19,749 nucleotides of DNA from Asterionellopsis glacialis (taxonomy: Eukaryota > Bacillariophyta > Plagiogrammaphyceae > Rhaphoneidales > Asterionellopsidaceae), in the NCBI GenBank assembly GCA_014885115.2, contig WKLE02001996.1, forward strand, positions 1 to 19,749, written 5' to 3'. The stretch's first letter is position 1, and every line of letters starts with the position of its first letter. Of this stretch, positions 500 through 16,800 are shown one piece after another. The notes under the pieces are model-generated. The model saw only the letters and a list, made by a program, of their open reading frames with translations, was not told the DNA's origin and did no database searches. Made by a program: the position numbers and the translations under genes.

Positions 500-1210
500 A
501 TGACGACAACCATGCAATCGTCACCCACATTACGATTTCAAATTGGAAGTACAGTGACACCTGGTGATCGTATTGGTAGTATACGTGAAGTATCTGCTGG
601 GAAAGGTACCTATGTACGTGGTGGACATGTATATGCAAGTGCAGTTGGTACATTGACATTGGACAATAGTATCGAATCATCGTCATCATCATCATCACAA
701 CCTTTAGTAGTAGTATCTGTGGAATTAGGAAAAGGACGTCAATATGCATCTTCTAAAGTACTAACTGTTGGGACGCTAATTTTAGGACGTGTATCACGTG
801 TCATGATGCAACAAGTTATTATTGATATGGTAGCTGCCGAACATATAGGTAGTTTGGTCGTACCAGGGAGTAGCAGTACCAGTCAACAACTTCCAGAAGG
901 TGTCATTCGGAAAGAAGATGCAAGATCACAAACAACGGAAGAAATATCATTAGATAAATGCTTTCATCCAGGTGATGTTGTCCTATGTCGTATATTGGCT
1001 TTGGGGGATTCGCGTAAATTCTTATTAACGACAGGTGAAACAGAATTAGGTGTCATACAAGCCATCTCCAAAGTGAGTGGTCAACCCATGATACCAACAT
1101 CATGGAATGAAATGGAATGTCCAATTACACATACCAAGGAATCTAGAAAATGTGCAAAACCATCCTCTGCATCTGCGTCATTGAGTACCACCATGACAAC
1201 CCAACATTGA
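500..1210 (+). CDS. CSL4: Exosome complex cap subunit CSL4 (EXOSC1-like)
   Basis: CSL4 is one of three RNA-binding cap subunits of the RNA exosome, which degrades and trims RNA 3' to 5' in nucleus and cytoplasm; the cap threads RNA into the ring. The 236-residue protein matches the family along its length. An N-terminal domain has PGDRIG (21-26) and GKGTYVRGGHVYAS (34-47). An S1-type RNA-binding domain spans about 88-165 with the hallmark GVIRKEDAR (134-142). The C-terminal domain has FHPGDVVLCRILALGD (155-170) and ends in a block around SWNEMECPITHTKESRK (201-217). Length is slightly above the human protein of about 195 residues because of a Ser run (60-66) and a Ser/Thr-rich tail after 221. 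The first ATG is used; a second in-frame ATG lies four codons on. No intron is seen. Confidence 0.93.
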   Translation: MTTTMQSSPTLRFQIGSTVTPGDRIGSIREVSAGKGTYVRGGHVYASAVGTLTLDNSIESSSSSSSQPLVVVSVELGKGRQYASSKVLTVGTLILGRVSRVMMQQVIIDMVAAEHIGSLVVPGSSSTSQQLPEGVIRKEDARSQTTEEISLDKCFHPGDVVLCRILALGDSRKFLLTTGETELGVIQAISKVSGQPMIPTSWNEMECPITHTKESRKCAKPSSASASLSTTMTTQH

Positions 1211-1531
1211 CGGGGGGTGAGGAAGGAAGGCAACACGTGAACAATTCATAGAATTTGATCTTTTTTCTTGTTCGGGAGTGAGGCGAGAAAGCATTGCATT
1301 ACTAACTAAATACTGTACTCTGTATACTTGAAACTACAAGAAAGTAATGATATTTTATAAAGAAAACTCCTTCCCTTTTAGAGAGAAGATATTAGAGACG
1401 GTACATGAAATTGTACTTTTTTAATCATTTGGCTTCCTACTATGATTTCATGTATTTATTTTCTTTGACTTTTTGCGGGTTTATAACCATTCGTATGTGT
1501 TTAATCGTCAAAAACACTGTGCGTACCAACG
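1211..1531. other. 3' flank of CSL4
   Basis: No gene is seen here. It is AT-rich with normal CpG frequency (for example near 1211, 1235, 1272 and 1505-1530), and probably holds the CSL4 3' untranslated region and terminator. The last CpG before the depleted tract is at 1530-1531. Confidence 0.5.
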
Positions 1532-2809
1532 TATATCCATAGATAACAGAAAACTAAAATATGTATCACAGTCTTTACAATATGTAGCAGTTGGGGGGAA
1601 GGGGTTTCTATATGTCTTGCAACTTGGACAATTAAAGAGTATGCTGTATGACAATCCAGTCTTTATGTGAGTCTCTTTCAGTGAGGATAACATATAAGCA
1701 CCATATAATACTATCTAGAATTCTTCATTTATGTTTGAGAGGTCTTCACACTTTTGAAAGAGATCAACAACAACAAGCTTGCTTCTAAAGGCCATCTAAG
1801 AATTTGCAGATAACATACCTGTGGTGGCTACACACTAACAAGGACTGTGAGGGGGAAATAAAGATACCTTACTACAAATAACATGAAATTTTGATATTGT
1901 TTTATTTTCATTCTCTGGATAGAATTTTTTAAACAAATCACAAATCAAGGTTGACTTGAACTAACTTCTTGCTTACTAGAGATTATTTTGATGAGCACCA
2001 GAATTCCAAAATTCTTTCAAGTAAGAAGACATTTCTGTAGAGTTATTTGTGACCTAGATTTCACAATGCATGTTTTCATAATGATGTAGACATTCAGGTA
2101 CTATTTGAAACAATGTCTTCTACAAAGACAAGTGGTATTGTTCAGAAGCAGAAAGAAGAAACTTAAGCACTCCTCACATATAACTGACTTGGCCATTATT
2201 TCAAAACCCACTGTGTCATCAATGACATCAGCAGCAAAAGTACTGAATTCATTGTGGTCTCTCTTTTCTAATCCATGGTCTTGAATATTATTGATATATT
2301 CCTGTTTTAGGTTATTAAATTCAATAACTTTAACAAGAACAATTTTCATCACAAGGTGGTGGTGATGCCCTTGAACATTTTTATGGTGGTGACCACCCAT
2401 CAAACTAGCACCATATTTACTAATAGTTTATAAAGCAGGGAAACACAGCAAATAAATAAAAGCCATAAGCAATATATGAATAACATTTTGTAATTTTAGT
2501 ACATGACTTACAGTATGATAACTTTATCTGGTGTGCACTTATTTAAGAAATAGTGAGGTTGAAAAACATTTTGATAGTAGTAGATTGCTTCATCCCTCTT
2601 GATTTTTGAAAGTCCAGGAAATCAATCAATTTGACTATTCTTCCTTTTTCATTATCATAAAGATTCTTTTTCCTCAGGACATCCACATGGCCAACAGACT
2701 TCTTACATGATCATAAGACACAGGGACAACTACTAAAAGGATTTGGGTTACCAGCAACCTTATTTTTTCTGTAATGCTGGAAAAGTAGGACTGTCTCAAC
2801 CTATGTTTG

Positions 2810-3205
2810 TCTTCATCTTCACATCCCATTGAAACCTGGATACTTGTTCATATATAAGGAGGAAGAAAAAACATTTGTAGGTTGCAATTTTTATATGTTG
2901 CTCTCCTAAAAGAATATGGATGAAGAAAAAACAACAGAACTAACATGCTTTATTATAGGGTTTCAAGGATTAATTTTTACAGTCATCTTCTTATTTTGAC
3001 AAACAAACATATAATTAAATTTGTAAAGTACTACATTTTCTTCTTCATGTTCACCCCAGTGAAACCTTCACAGTTATCTTGATCTCTGGAAAGACTAAAT
3101 TGAATGTATGAAATCACACTTTCTTCTTCATGTTCATTCCAGTAAAGCCTATATACATAGTACTTGTTAATATTAGAGGATGAAACCAAATTTGTTGTTG
3201 TGTTT
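2810..3205 (+). repeat. Diverged short repeats around a CTTCTTCATGTTC word
   Basis: Three related stretches were seen. One at 3036-3067 and one at 3119-3150 share the word TTCTTCTTCATGTTCA, then an imperfect CCAGT and AAACCT/AAAGCCT match. A looser copy starts near 2810, and its continuation (about 2838-2900) resembles the sequence after the third copy (about 3150-3205), sharing TACTTGTT, a purine-rich AGGA..GAA stretch, and TTG-rich sequence ending in TTTTTAT. The copies are strongly diverged and were aligned by eye. Confidence 0.45.
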
Positions 3206-3342
3206 TTATTTCTTTTGTCAGTCTACAAAAAAGAACAGATAATGACAAAAAAATGAACTATCAGCTTGCTTTAAGCTCCCATCAATCAACATTCATAGTC
3301 TTCTTAATCCATTTGCAAAATCCTACTTGCACCCTCTACTGC

Positions 3343-3486
3343 CAAAATTTCTGTTGTAAAAATCTCACTTGGTGATAAATTTTCCCTATGACAGCACCAT
3401 AAACAATCATTTACTAAATACAACAATTATAAGTATCATTTTGTTAAAACAATAAGTAAAAAAATTGATTTGAATGTTTTTAGGAT
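3343..3486 (+). repeat. Ancient direct repeat, copy A
   Basis: This stretch aligns in the same orientation with 3673-3822. Shared landmarks in order are CAAAATTTCT, a GTGATAAATTTT/GTGATGAAATTTT word, ATGACAGCACCAT versus GTGACAGTGCCAT, AATCA, a TATCATTTTGTTAAAA/CATCATTATGTTAAAA word, and a closing GTTTTTAG. Several differences are C-to-T or G-to-A changes. The match was aligned by eye and needs a gapped alignment. Confidence 0.55.
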
Positions 3487-3672
3487 ACATTTAGACCCTT
3501 TGGAATGCTTTGGACAACAATGCCTTTCAGGTGATATGATTAAGATGCACCATTGTCTCTCTCAGGTGTATTTCTTATGTAAATGATGATTAGATGCAAG
3601 GGGTGTCTACTAGTACTTTTGTCTACATAATTTCTGTGATATGCATAATAAAACTGTCTACACAGGAGAAGT

Positions 3673-3822
3673 CAAAATTTCTATTTTCTAAAAATATCCC
3701 TTAGTGATGAAATTTTACTGTGACAGTGCCATCATAGAAAATCAATCACCAAAAAAAAAGAATTATGTGCATCATTATGTTAAAAAAATACTTCAAAAAT
3801 TTGATGTAGGTGTTTTTAGTTA
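3673..3822 (+). repeat. Ancient direct repeat, copy B
   Basis: This is the partner of 3343-3486, starting 330 bases downstream, with the same landmarks in the same order and a few small gaps. Its presence suggests that the CpG-poor tract contains, or is built from, repeated units rather than unique sequence. Confidence 0.55.
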
Positions 3823-5050
3823 TTGCAGCAAGTTGAAAGTATTGATGTAGCAAATTGAAAACATGTAAATTGTCTTATTTGTAAAAAAACTTTCCAAAAT
3901 GATGGGATTAGGCTTTTTGTATCCACTCTCCACCCTTTACTAGTAGGATTTTAGAAGAACACCAACCAAAAATTATTTTAACCTGGTATATTTAGCACAC
4001 CTAGTATACCATTTAGTGTGTACAAGTTTACACTCTTCCACTTTACAAGAATAGCACCTTTGCACATCTGACTATGGATTTTTATTTCTCCACTAGTTCC
4101 TCATCCAATGTAACAATACAGCAGATCTCCTTAATCTTGGATTGTAGATCCTGCTGGGAAGACTACGTGCTTGTTCAACTCTTACCAGATTCTGAACTAC
4201 CATCTCCAGCCAATACCACTAACAAGTACTCCTCCTTGCTTGCTTAAACCAACCTGTTCCCCTCAATGCACCTTGCACACCCATGCTCTCAATTCCTCCT
4301 TAGTCCACTACTGGTAGCTTGCATTGCAAAACAAACCATATAACCTTTATATTACTTTTTAAAATTTAAAATAGGATTCCATTAATACTCACCCAGTTAT
4401 TCATGTAATGATGAAATCATGACTACTCAACCTAGGAACTATACAGAAAATCATGTTCTCACTGCAAAACATTTCACTTGCCACACTTATGGCCTTAGCT
4501 AAGAACCAAGACAACACTGTATGGTTACAATTCCTCTATGGGCGAGAGTATCATATATCTGGAAGAATGCACAGGAGAAATGGCTTCATCACAAAATGGA
4601 AACAATCAAGTCCTCAAAAATGGGCCCCACTCTATGTAGTGGCACAATAAACAAATCATCAACTTTTTATGCACCCTCTTGTCATTTTTGTATGTGTGAT
4701 ATCTAAGTATTATTTTTATGTGATATTTTTTGTATCTTTGATTCAGACAGATGGTTGGATTCTATTCTTTGCTCCCAAATCAATGAAAAAGACACCACTA
4801 TTGAATATTTCACAGGATGATGCAGTCCCAGCACTACCAAAGTGCATTGCTGTGATGATTTCTACTGATCCAGCTTGACTCTTCACAATCATCAAATGCC
4901 ACAAGTGGTTGTTGATCTCCATCACTAGTTGCTACCAGGTACAGCCCCTGCTAGAGTCCCATTGGCACCAGCAGCAAGAAATAGATTGGAAGTCTCCACA
5001 GAAATGAAATCAACTAACAAAACTATACTGCAAAAATAAGTGTGCTGGGC

Positions 5051-5070
5051 ATTATATTATATAATATTAT
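5051..5070. repeat. AT-only near-palindrome at the edge of the CpG-poor tract
   Basis: This 20-base A/T-only sequence equals its own reverse complement except at one symmetrical pair (positions 3 and 18). It lies 10 bases before the first CpG of normal flanking DNA at 5081. It could mark an insertion boundary or be a chance AT-rich hairpin. Confidence 0.4.
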
Positions 5071-5736
5071 AAATTGATGACGGTTCACAGTTCTGTTTTT
5101 AAATTTTGGCTCGCGACCCCAGTCTGCCCCAGTCTGACTTGATCGTTTCTGTCCATACGAAGAATTAGAGCTTTCGACGGGGTCGTAATTTTGCTGGAAA
5201 CGGAAAACCCCTTTTTCTTATTCTTATTTTTTCTTATTCTTATTTTCAATTTCTTTCTATTGGTACACAATTCTACATTTCTTCAATTTCTGATCATCAG
5301 AAAAAGAATAAGTAATAGGAATCATAACTTGATAAACAGCAGTGTGAACCAGCTTAGCCAATAATAATAATGTACTGGTTCGATAGTACGTACCTTTTCT
5401 AAAAGGAGGGGTATTGTTAGTTGTACTGTACCTGGGTATTGATTCAAAACTCTATACTCGCTGTAGAGGTGAAACATGATGTATAATTGATTACTCAGTA
5501 TAGAATTCTTTAGTACCTTTCTACAAGGAACACCCGAGGAAATAATCTGTATTCTGGAAGTAATTCAACATAGTAACAATTCGATTGTGTTATCAGCATG
5601 TCATACGTGATACGAACAAGTTGAAGTATAGAGAACCCCTCTTACAGTTCAGATCCAAAAATAACACTTTCGGAAAATAGTAATAAACATATTAGTTTTA
5701 AATCTTCGTAATAATAAATGTTCTTTCTGAAACCAT

Positions 5737-6138: not shown

Positions 6139-6220
6139 GTAGGACTACTTTGAAGGAAGCAATGTAATGTCGTAGCTGCGAAGGACTACTTCGAAGGAAT
6201 CTGTGTAATATTGTATCTGC
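6139..6220. repeat. Diverged 41 bp tandem duplication
   Basis: Two adjacent 41-base units, 6139-6179 and 6180-6220, share 33 of 41 positions by eye. Common words are AGGACTACTT, GAAGGAA and GTAAT, with CTGC at the end. The pair probably lies in the 3' untranslated region or just downstream of the HMG-box gene. Confidence 0.65.
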
Positions 6221-6286: not shown

Positions 6287-7096
6287 TTATATTTTTGGTT
6301 CACCGGGTGTGGAGTTTAATGAACATATAAAATCAATGCATTTATTGTCCAACTTGGATGCTAGATCATCAATGTTCTTTGCTGACAATATTTGTCCCAG
6401 GTTGCTGGTTTGTAGAGCTTGCCGACCAGCGTCGACAGAATTATCAATTGAATCAGAGAATAGAAAATCCTCTTGTGTATTTGATTCCTCAAGAACACTT
6501 GATAATTTGAAAATTATTGCTGTAGAATTCAACTCTTGACCATTAGATAGATCATGCTGTAAAGTACCATTTTCCTCAAAATTGAATGACTCAATTTGAC
6601 AATCATTGCTGATTGCGTTATGGCTTGTTGAGAGTTTTGGAATACTTTTACAACTGAGACTATCGGTACTACTTGGAAAGGTGAAGGGTCCTTCGATACT
6701 TGTGTTTGCGTTGCTGTGGTACTTGATGTTGGCGGTAGTCTTCTCTTGCCTTTCCTTCCAAGCTTTTAATTCAGCTTGACACCGCCTCATATCTTTCTGA
6801 GCCGCGATTTGGTACTCCTCTTTTCTTTCTTCCGACAAGCTCTTCCACTTGGCTGCTATCTTTCTATTAATGTCAGTGTATCCCATAGAACCTGGTCTTT
6901 TTCGACGTCGTCGATCCTTAACACCATATAATATCTTGGACACTTCTAGAGATGATAATTCACCACTATTCAAAGCCTCTTGTAGAATTCTTGAACGTTC
7001 CTCCTCGGCGAATATATGGTATGCCGAACGTGGTCTTCGAGGTCTTTCCATTGATGCAGGCATGTTTGTATACTTTGCTGTTCGCATTGCATTCAT
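6287..7096 (-). CDS. HMG-box protein with an insert inside the box
   Basis: The 269-residue protein carries one HMG box near its N terminus, so it is probably a nuclear DNA-binding or chromatin protein. Helix 1 begins at RPRRPRSAYHIFAEEER (18-34), the usual 'P..P.SAY..F..E.R' signature. Helices 2 and 3 are TDINRKIAAKWKSLSEER (74-91) followed by KEEYQIAAQKDMRRCQAELKAW (92-113). Between helix 1 and helix 2, where a standard box has only a short turn, lies about 35 residues (38-72) containing the basic run RRRRKR (62-67), a possible nuclear localisation signal. The C-terminal half (120-269) is rich in Ser, Asn and acidic residues without a known domain. The reading frame is unbroken and opens at the first ATG; alternative in-frame starts lie at codons 4 and 12. 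The gene is divergent from the reductase gene at 8208. Confidence 0.85.
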   Translation of the reverse strand: MNAMRTAKYTNMPASMERPRRPRSAYHIFAEEERSRILQEALNSGELSSLEVSKILYGVKDRRRRKRPGSMGYTDINRKIAAKWKSLSEERKEEYQIAAQKDMRRCQAELKAWKERQEKTTANIKYHSNANTSIEGPFTFPSSTDSLSCKSIPKLSTSHNAISNDCQIESFNFEENGTLQHDLSNGQELNSTAIIFKLSSVLEESNTQEDFLFSDSIDNSVDAGRQALQTSNLGQILSAKNIDDLASKLDNKCIDFICSLNSTPGEPKI

Positions 7097-7559: not shown

Positions 7560-7611
7560 AGTATAATTTTATGTATCAAAAAGAAAACGGCGGGAAATGA
7601 TTGGTTGGATT
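7560..7611 (+). repeat. Dispersed 52 bp block, copy 2, with E2F-like site and CCAAT box
   Basis: This is the partner of 78-129, identical at 51 of 52 positions and in the same orientation. GGCGGGAAA is at 7589-7597 and ATTGG at 7600-7604. It lies about 600 bases upstream of the reductase start codon, while copy 1 lies about 370 bases upstream of CSL4. Flanking bases are unrelated in the two copies. Confidence 0.75.
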
Positions 7612-13252: not shown

Positions 13253-13843
13253 AGGAACGCAAAGGGTGAAAAAGCAGAATGTTTTCCAGCGCGTCGACAT
13301 TAGCATGCCCCCGCCGACCACTTGCTGTTGGTGCGAGCTAAAAAGGCGTCACAAGAGTTTGGAGTGCGGCAGGTCTACTCGAACAAAATACCAGTACCGC
13401 AGGCTACATGCTACTGCGGAACGGTACTTTTTCTGTAGCTCCGAGGAGAGAGTGTACGTTGTTGAAGCAGAAAAAGCAAGGGGTAAGTAAGGGCACCAGT
13501 GCTGCAGCGGCAGACTGGAAGGCGTTAAACCAGTAGCAACTCGATCACGACTGCGAGACAAAGTACAGTGTGACACAAAGACTTGTGGCTGTAATCTACT
13601 TTCGACAAAAAGCTGACATCATAGAGGTAGTTTTCGTTTTGGTAAGGTCTCTTTAGAAAGGAGCTTTGATAAATAATATACCTTGGTGCTCCGTCCCGTG
13701 CATAGTGAGTTAGTCCCATAATTTAATTCTGTGGAGGCATTTAAAGTACAATTGAGTTACGCGGAACTTTTTCAGTTTGGTCAAGGGACTCTGTCGCTGA
13801 ACACAACCTACATTGTTATTTTCAAGTTTTGTAGAGATTGTGT

Positions 13844-16800
13844 ATGAGTACTCCTGCAATAGCAATGATGTCTCAAGTGGCTACGGCTACTCCCGCGTCA
13901 TCTTCCAATAATAATTCAAGCAATACCAGCAACAGTTCTGGCAATAACACGGGCAGTGGTACAAACGCTAATAATAATGAGAATAATCCCAGCAGCGACA
14001 GTGCTGTCAGTAACGCTAATTCAAAGCAATCTGTGTCACCACCTCCCATGATGCCGAATGGGGATGGGTCTGCTCCTCAAAGGCCTTTCAATAATGCAAG
14101 CAACAGCAGTGCAAACAACAAATCAATGCAGAATAAAGCAAGTGCCTCTGCCTCCGCTGCTACCGGGGTAGTCTTACATCCTCAATTACAGCAGGTACAC
14201 CAACATCATCAACAGCAGCAGCAGCATATACAACATCAACATTTGCAACAACATTTGCTTCATCATCAACATCCTCATAGTCTACAGCACCAACAACATA
14301 ATCAACAGGCCCAACAACACCTTTATCAACAGCAGCAGCAGCACCAACATCAGCATCATAACCAGCAACAACTCCATGAACAACAACAACAACAACAACA
14401 ACAACAGCAAGATTTGGAAGAATTAATTCATCCAGGTGATCCTCTTCCATCTGATCTACGTAAAATTTTAATGGTTGTGGCACGATCAGGGAATTGTTCA
14501 TGGTTATCTTGGAATACACCACATTTGCCACTTGCAGAAATAATGTCATCTTCACAATCTGAATCAGGTGGTTCAACGGCAACTGCTATCTCTTCCAACA
14601 AGGCGAGACATTTTACTACGGCTCATCGCAATACAGAGAAAAGTACTAGCAAACAACAACAACAGCAACAACACCAGCAGCAATCGCAACACCAGCAACA
14701 CCCACCAACAACACCACCTGTACCTGCTGCGGCTCTTACAGCTTCTCCTGCTGCTCCATCTACTACTACGGCAACACCACCACCAACAACCGCACCGTCA
14801 ACAACTTATAATCCAACGACAACTGCATCACCAAATCAACCTCCAACACCAGCACCATCGCCTGCCGCCTCGCCATATCATCAGAGCCAGCAGCAACAGC
14901 AACAACAACTGCCTCAATCCCAACAACATCAACCGGCACCCGCAGCAGCAGCGTCGTCGTCATCATCATCACCACTCCATAGCACTGTACCACCTCGTAA
15001 AAAACGAAGGAATGGATTACATTCATCTATAGGACGTAGACGATATGGTGCCGAGTCTGGTACAAAATCACCTGCATCCCAAGTAACGGGTGGACGGAAA
15101 CGTCCATTATTCCTTATACGGACCACATCGTCTTCCACCACATCCAGTATGTTTTCCACAGGATCCGTTGGATCTGGACGTACATCCGGATCCGAACCGG
15201 ATGATTCTACACAATACGAATGTGATTCGGAGGGTACATCGGCCACAACCAATTCAGAATTAAGTGTGGGTGAACGTCGAGAACAATTACGTAAAAAGGT
15301 GACCATCCAAAAAACATCTTCCGGTGTTTCATCCTATACACAACGTGAGGCAGCACAACCACGATTTAAAACATTGCGAGAGGCAACACGGGTAGCACTT
15401 GGACTTGTTCTGGATCATTTTTATAAATACAGAGGTGGATACAAATTAAGTCCTGCAGAATTAAGACGTAATGCTACTGTAGAACAGCAGCAGCAGCAAC
15501 AACAACAACAACAAAGTACTGCTCCCAATCATTCATCATCGGTGACAAATGGAGCATCCAATACGAACAATAATAACAATGGTCCTACAACAAGTGGCCA
15601 TGGAAGTAACAAGGGGAATAATCCAGGAGGAAGTAATAATAACAGTAGCAAGGCAGTAGCAGGGTCGCCTTCGCAATATGCATTAAAGTTATCTCCTGAA
15701 GGTGTATTTCAACAACGTCGGAAACGTTTATTAGCCTTGCTGGGTGAAACGGATGATGAAATGGAAAATGAAGGACGATCTTCCAGTAGTGGCAGTGGTA
15801 TGATGATGGCATCGAAAGATTCTCATTCAACACCTCATCCAAATAGTACCCCATCATCTAAGCATAACAATGATGAAAGTGATACTAACATGAATCCATC
15901 ATCATCTTCTTCTCAACGGCATCAACGGGGCCACCATCATCAACCCAATAATAATAATACCACCAGCAGCAGCAGTAGGCAAATGTCCAAAAAGAAACGT
16001 GTCAAGTATCTCAAATCTGCTTCTGCGAATAACGAGGGACCACCATTTACCATTCAACGATTGGCCGAGGTATTAGTTAGTCCTGAAAGGTACTACACCC
16101 AAACGCACAAATTATGTAATTGTTTGGAAAAATTACTTTTAGTAACATCCTCATCTACTGCATTTGGAGGACATACCGGAGGTGATACGTCTCAAAGTAG
16201 AAGAGAGGTGCGTCATAAAGTATTGTTTGTCCGCTTCGTGTCATTCGGCAACGTGAAACACGAGGATACTTCTTGAATAATTTTCTCACACATATTCATC
16301 GTCTCTCCTGTTCAATGTATTTTTTGGAACACCCTGAATTAGGCACGAGAACTTGCTGCTCTTGCCAATGAAAAGGAACGCGAACGTCGTTTACGTCGTC
16401 GTATGTCATCCGTATCATCTGTGGATGATTTAGAAGAGAAGGATGGCAACCAGGGAAGACCAAATTCAATATCATCTTCAGAAATGCCACCCTTTTCTGA
16501 GAATTCAAAGAAACCACCATCTGAAAATTCTGCAACAAGCAAGAATACGGAAGATCCCGAAAATTCAGCACATGCTCGCGAATTCCTCGAGGCAGCTGCG
16601 CGAGCATCACTCCGAAGTAAATTTGATCATGTTGCTATTGATCCACATGCTGCGTCTGCCGCGGCCGAACGTGTTGGGGTTGGGCGTGCATCGTCTCCAC
16701 CACCGCCTAGTCTTAATATGTCAGCATCACCACAAAACATCGCTCTTCAAGCTCATGGGACCGGCGGTTTCGTCCGCCAACATTTGCAAGATCAACCAGG

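Follow-up and report, generated by a model that had tools for sequence, protein, structure and literature searches.

A CpG desert in the diatom Asterionellopsis glacialis as the probable trace of long-lasting CG methylation

Introduction

In vertebrates, methylated repeats undergo CpG decay, and vertebrate genomes have an observed/expected ratio (o/e) for CpG of roughly 0.2. In fungi, repeat-induced point mutation (RIP) has CpA as its classical target, and its sign is CpA depletion together with a raised TpA/ApT ratio. Here, we describe a tract of the diatom Asterionellopsis glacialis from which CpG is almost absent. It lies at positions 1531–5080 (no strand) of a stretch of 19,749 nucleotides, referred to below as the window, which forms the beginning of a 77.5-kb contig. 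We consider it very probable, judging from sequence evidence, that this CpG desert is an old, silenced, non-functional island that was CG-methylated for a long time and lost its CpGs through deamination of 5-methylcytosine.

The closest described systems are the CG-methylated transposable elements (TEs) and repeats of other diatoms. According to one report, TEs are the major targets of CG methylation in Phaeodactylum tricornutum, where CG methylation is lost globally, and young TEs are overexpressed, when DNMT5a is missing; the same report describes DNMT1 as apparently lacking in most of the microeukaryote databases searched (PMC9998398). For Cyclotella cryptica, another report describes highly methylated regions of up to 30 kb that align with repeats and adjoin gene-rich regions free of methylation (PMC5124317). 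Among the titles and opening lines of abstracts listed by a literature search, in which most subscription journals are not represented, there was no publication on CpG deserts of this kind in a diatom.

Results

The tract and its edges

The assembly comprises 40.3 Mb in 1503 contigs, which we cite by number (the window is the start of C706), and loci fetched from it carry L numbers. By direct count, successive CpGs lie at 1530, 4166, 4543 and 5081, leaving two within 1532–5080 (4166–4167 and 4543–4544, neither assigned to a strand) and the first 2.6 kb free of CpG, exactly as the sequence-only reading from which this work started had reported. That reading had expected 80–100 CpGs; we obtain 99 from C × G / length and 78 at the flank ratio, and the Poisson probability of two or fewer at a mean of 78.4 is 2.9e-31. 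Outside the tract, the longest CpG-free gap in the window is 295 bases. CpG o/e is 0.02 in the tract versus 0.79 in the rest of the window, and a two-state segmentation, with rates set by hand, returns the tract as a single segment.

Depletion is strong for CpG and absent for GpC (o/e 0.92, versus 0.93 in the rest of the window). TpG is raised (1.41 versus 1.20), CpA barely so (1.35 versus 1.31); the earlier statement that these three dinucleotides remain common and that the flanks are ordinary therefore agrees with the counts. So does the description of the edges as sharp: the 300 bases beyond each edge hold 9 CpGs, and the 300 bases within each edge hold 0. Two caveats apply here. The right flank contains a 180-base CpG gap (5201–5381), and GC content is 0.34 in the tract, lower than the 0.40 of the window outside it.

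Deserts elsewhere in the genome

The tract had been regarded as one special insertion, a view that comparison with the rest of the genome does not support, since severe deserts occur at five further places. Four of these come from a sample of 19 stretches (157,004 non-N bases) drawn from ten contigs that were picked by their number. Three of the ten sampled contigs contain severe deserts with o/e of 0.03–0.07, namely C1 (two, C1a and C1b), C50 and C200, which together occupy 13,488 of the 157,004 bases. In C100, segmentation yields intermediate segments (o/e about 0.2; 16,813 bases), and the other six sampled contigs yield none. The fifth further desert, about 5.9 kb long with borders set by hand, lies inside an 87-kb contig (C209) with CpG-normal DNA on either side; because it was found through a repeat that it has in common with the tract, it stands outside the by-number sample. 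Depletion across all intergenic DNA, which would have refuted the sequence-only reading, is not what the sample shows: over 569 overlapping one-kb windows the median CpG o/e is 0.77, with a 10th percentile of 0.18 and a 5th percentile of 0.07, intergenic DNA not being annotated separately in these figures.

Edges of the further deserts vary. Counts of CpGs per 300 bases, read from left to right across the left edge (outside/inside) and then across the right edge (inside/outside), are 6/1 and 1/7 for C209, 12/0 (with 179 bases outside) and 1/11 for C50, 14/0 and 1/4 for C1b, 4/0 and 0/5 for C200, and 3/0 and 1/2 for C1a. Edges are thus sharp for C209, for C50 and on the left of C1b, moderate for C200 and weak for C1a. 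No similarity was found between different deserts except for the repeat common to the tract and C209, and the C50 desert, used as a genome query, returns itself and one 78-base match.

The contig C100 (22 kb) has a CpG o/e of 0.31 overall and of about 0.2 in three segments; it is possibly a younger silenced region. Its 240 CpGs show by eye no periodicity in the distance histogram that would indicate nucleosome-spaced residual sites. Of the six contigs seen to bear a desert or an intermediate segment, four have one that begins less than 1.6 kb from the contig start (C1 at 867, C50 at 180, C706 at 1531, C100 at 1); in C200 and C209 none does. Assembly breaks may favour desert DNA. A different dinucleotide bias is seen in locus L018 (C500:1-10000), where TpA o/e is 0.23, versus 0.65 in a pool of normal DNA to which L018 itself belongs, and TpG o/e is 1.59; by eye, its long open frames resemble those of long interspersed nuclear elements.

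Mutation signature

The right end of the tract offers a direct comparison with a relative. A broken fragment of an EXD1-like 3′-5′ exonuclease gene lies at 4686–5042 on the minus strand, where positions 4737–5042 have 77% DNA identity to a gene on C318 and a protein match at 4686–4880 is interrupted by one TGA and two TAA codons. The C318 gene is intact, a 305-residue open frame with a 3′-5′ exonuclease domain and a KH domain, so that what the tract carries is an incomplete, dead copy of a gene of its host. A search of the genome with the EXD1-like protein returns the C318 gene, the tract fragment and one distant relative on C713, and names among the best 120 of 136 matches of an EXD1-like search include Chaetoceros, Thalassiosira, Conticribra, Stephanodiscus, Cyclotella and Attheya. 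All six CpGs of the C318 gene that can be aligned are lost from the tract, having become TG twice, CA twice, CC once and AA once. The transition rate is 0.42 at C and G within CpG and 0.07 at other C and G (p = 3.5e-3).

The same skew is found among retroelements with an RVT_2 domain, for which we fetched 20 copies from near the top of the match list rather than at random. Their CpG o/e is graded from 0.06 to 0.99. For the pair L039/L044, 94% identical, the transition rate is 0.29 at CpG versus 0.03 at other C and G (p = 3e-6), and in the other direction 0.19 versus 0.04 (p = 7e-3). For L049/L045 the corresponding values are 0.41 versus 0.11 (p = 9e-4) and 0.40 versus 0.11 (p = 0.02). From the open copy L035 to L038, L037 and L041 there is likewise an excess of CpG transitions (p = 1.9e-3, 1.3e-4 and 1.4e-2, respectively); the reverse comparisons of these three onto L035 show none, as would follow from L035 having decayed less. 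In-frame stops in 50 RVT_2 matches, counted by hand (51 stops), comprise 27 TGA, 16 TAA and 8 TAG. The excess of TGA, the codon produced from CGA by this kind of transition, has p = 1.5e-4 against a share of 0.28 that is our own estimate for the composition. Reading frames of the fetched copies were taken as those with the fewest stops; for L046, L052 and L054 this frame fell on the strand opposite the match, and the L049 stretch spans two matches, so the stop counts from these four frames went unused. The stop classes are those of the RVT_2 genome search, and CpG o/e is independent of strand.

The loss is in the main specific to CG and is not classical RIP. Across the six deserts, the tract included, the CWG ratio (W being A or T) is 0.95, versus 1.00 in pooled normal DNA. 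The RIP sign is absent from the tract, where CpA o/e is 1.35 and TpA/ApT is 0.82, the latter compared with 0.75 for the window outside the tract.

The strength of the erosion can also be estimated. The six deserts hold 33 CpGs and 3,476 TpG+CpA in 22,943 bases. If they are near the balance of gain and loss, and assuming mainly transitions and a single history for all six, the CpG transition rate would be about 53 times (38–77) the T-to-C rate; if CpG loss is still under way in them, this figure would be an underestimate. The L039/L044 pair gives a smaller factor of about 10, which is a different comparison, being made against transitions at other C and G (0.29 versus 0.03).

Methyltransferase genes

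A search of the genome with profile PF00145 gives eight matches on six contigs, C1019, C368, C398, C44, C597 and C466, the first five of which were followed up. One open frame each on C1019 and C368 has as its sole distinct PDB match 7r76 (E = 8.8e-26 and 1.8e-40), which is labelled DNA repair protein Rad8 in the PDB file and which we take to be the Cryptococcus DNMT5. On this basis, the genome encodes two putative DNMT5-type genes, each present as a fragment of one open frame. The frames on C398 and C44 match DNMT1-named chains, some of them presumably plant chromomethylases, and also bacterial enzymes, HaeIII being the best match of C44; the C597 frame matches HhaI-type enzymes. The loci on C398 (L024) and C44 (L025) appear to encode two DNMT1-like proteins, the former with a chromodomain match just below the Pfam cut-off (24.9 versus 25.1 bits).

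Other contents of the tract

Apart from the gene fragment, the tract contains degenerate repeats. One, on the minus strand at 2790–3288, consists of two copies (2790–3039 and 3091–3288; nhmmer E = 2.3e-5 and 5e-5) and recurs several times in the C209 desert, with 70% identity over 2961–3231. Another is a direct repeat on the plus strand, whose first copy (3343–3483) is 74% identical to its second (3673–3819). A genome search with the whole tract returns two relatives, both partial and located on C318 and C209, such counts being lower bounds, and the GC-richer piece at 3900–4740 finds no relative in the genome besides itself. A clean tandem array was considered and rejected, as TRF (Tandem Repeats Finder) gives no more than short rows, both in the tract and in L003. 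As for origin by a single insertion event, as the sequence-only reading had proposed, the edges offer nothing in its favour: a general repeat scan, not a search aimed at target-site duplications, revealed neither these nor terminal repeats at 1531 and 5080.

Genomic setting

The desert begins 1.5 kb from the contig end and sits between the convergent 3′ ends of two CpG-normal genes. The left neighbour (500–1210, plus strand) encodes the exosome component CSL4, whose sequence agrees at 100% with a protein of an MMETSP transcript; the named entries among the best 120 of 144 CSL4 matches belong to diatoms, with Epithemia, Amphora and Bacillariaceae among the names. The right neighbour (6287–7096, minus strand) encodes an HMG-box protein.

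The repeat scan also found a 52-base sequence present twice in the window at 98% identity, once before the CSL4 gene (78–129) and once in the interval from which the HMG-box and aldo-keto reductase genes diverge (7560–7611). It carries GGCGGGAAA, which we take to resemble an E2F site, and could represent a promoter element common to both places. A 41-base tandem repeat of two copies (6141–6220) lies just downstream of the end of the HMG-box gene, and an open frame at 13838–16276 combines long runs of glutamine, asparagine and serine with a C-terminal PPP4R2 match. No tRNA genes were found in the window, nor any Rfam family at the gathering score.

Discussion

We propose that non-functional DNA between two gene 3′ ends, holding a dead EXD1-like partial copy and degenerate repeats, came to be silenced and would have been held CG-methylated over a long time. 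Its 5-methylcytosines would have deaminated to T, converting CpG to TpG or CpA until nearly none remained, while the flanking genic DNA, unmethylated, would have kept its CpGs. If so, the edges of the tract would mark the border of a methylated domain (or of an inserted piece). Methylation as the cause of the CpG loss is supported by proxy, namely by the fate of CpGs present in the homologue, by the confinement of the loss to CG and by the presence of DNMT5-type genes; this part of the sequence-only reading thus probably stands. A DNMT5-type enzyme is a plausible maintainer of such methylation. The tract belongs to a class of islands found repeatedly in the genome and is an example of a known process.

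Several observations weigh against this explanation. The surplus of TpG+CpA in the tract over the flank ratio is about 45, versus about 76 missing CpGs, and so leaves part of the loss unaccounted for. The homologue test within the tract comprises a small number of sites, six CpGs, and its reverse is empty, as the aligned part of the tract has zero CpG. Two of the five comparisons from L035, those to L043 and L047, are not significant (p = 0.12 and 0.13), and neither is the difference in median CpG o/e between RVT_2 copies with stops (0.45; 12 copies) and without (0.73; 8 copies; p = 0.09). A strictly CG-only loss is further questioned by CWG in the tract alone, which at 0.91 is slightly below the 1.14 of the rest of the window. 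Finally, no Pfam domain was detected in the tract (six frames read with X at stops, E 0.1) or, at E 0.01, in C50:180-4125, C200:10001-14980, C1:867-5840 and C100:1-4980, the stretches that, with the C209 desert left out, made up the domain scan. The same method detects two decayed RVT_2 fragments, one at a CpG o/e of 0.06, so the blank in the tract is not simply a failure of method; the tract may be non-coding or older DNA.

An active, RIP-like or deaminase-driven burst that mutates duplicated DNA at CpG could also produce near-total CpG loss, and the tract does hold a duplicated gene fragment and repeats. Yet slow decay predicts what is seen among the retroelements, where CpG o/e is graded over the 20 copies and the 94%-identical pair has lost some of its CpGs and kept others. 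With CpA undepleted and TpA/ApT only a little above its value in the rest of the window, we regard such a burst as very unlikely.

The remaining alternatives concern where the DNA came from or what it does. Foreign DNA, or an assembly chimera with another dinucleotide bias, would fit the low GC of the tract, the lack of a match elsewhere for most of it and the contig end only 1.5 kb away. However, the tract contains a fragment of a gene of the same assembly, it has a repeat in common with the C209 desert, which is embedded in CpG-normal DNA, and further deserts exist in C1, C50 and C200; this alternative, raised in the sequence-only reading itself, is disfavoured, and we give it even less credence than the burst. 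Least credible to us is avoidance of CpG by selection or through a special chromosome function, for example an AT-rich centromere-like element. AT-richness and sharp bounds would suit such an element, but GpC is normal, the deserts showed no similarity to one another apart from the one repeat, and the share of sampled bases in severe deserts is too large for one short centromere per chromosome.

If long-lasting methylation is indeed the cause, CpG loss constitutes a record of past methylation that can be read from DNA only, and the methylated domains of this diatom, borders included, could be located by sequence analysis alone. The near-total erasure of CpG is the striking and unusually complete part of the finding, and it provides a measurable handle on the mutagenicity of CG methylation in a lineage with DNMT5-type enzymes. 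It also raises the question of how CpG-free islands stay silent. Such islands would no longer offer a DNMT5-type maintenance enzyme the CpGs it requires, and their silence would have to rest on something other than CG methylation. That CG methylation here consumes its own substrate almost fully, and that silence at the islands needs another layer such as histone marks, is a speculation that we put forward as conceivable, if rather unlikely.

Compared with known systems, the deserts share with fungal RIP the C-to-T decay of duplicated DNA; they differ from it in their undepleted CpA and in a loss that varies by degrees from copy to copy. With the methylated repeats of vertebrates they have in common the conversion of CpG to TpG and CpA in old silenced repeats, at a residual CpG o/e of about 0.05 over the six deserts, versus the roughly 0.2 of vertebrate genomes. 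The closest likeness is to the CG-methylated TEs and repeats of P. tricornutum and C. cryptica: the CG context, the TE and repeat targets and the unmethylated state of most genes are the same, and P. tricornutum shares DNMT5-type enzymes with the genome studied here (PMC9998398, PMC5124317). Unlike those methylated TEs, the tract is nearly CpG-free and holds no recognisable TE domain, and its methylation is read from CpG loss alone. By analogy, the deserts may represent the binary methylome of C. cryptica in fossil form.

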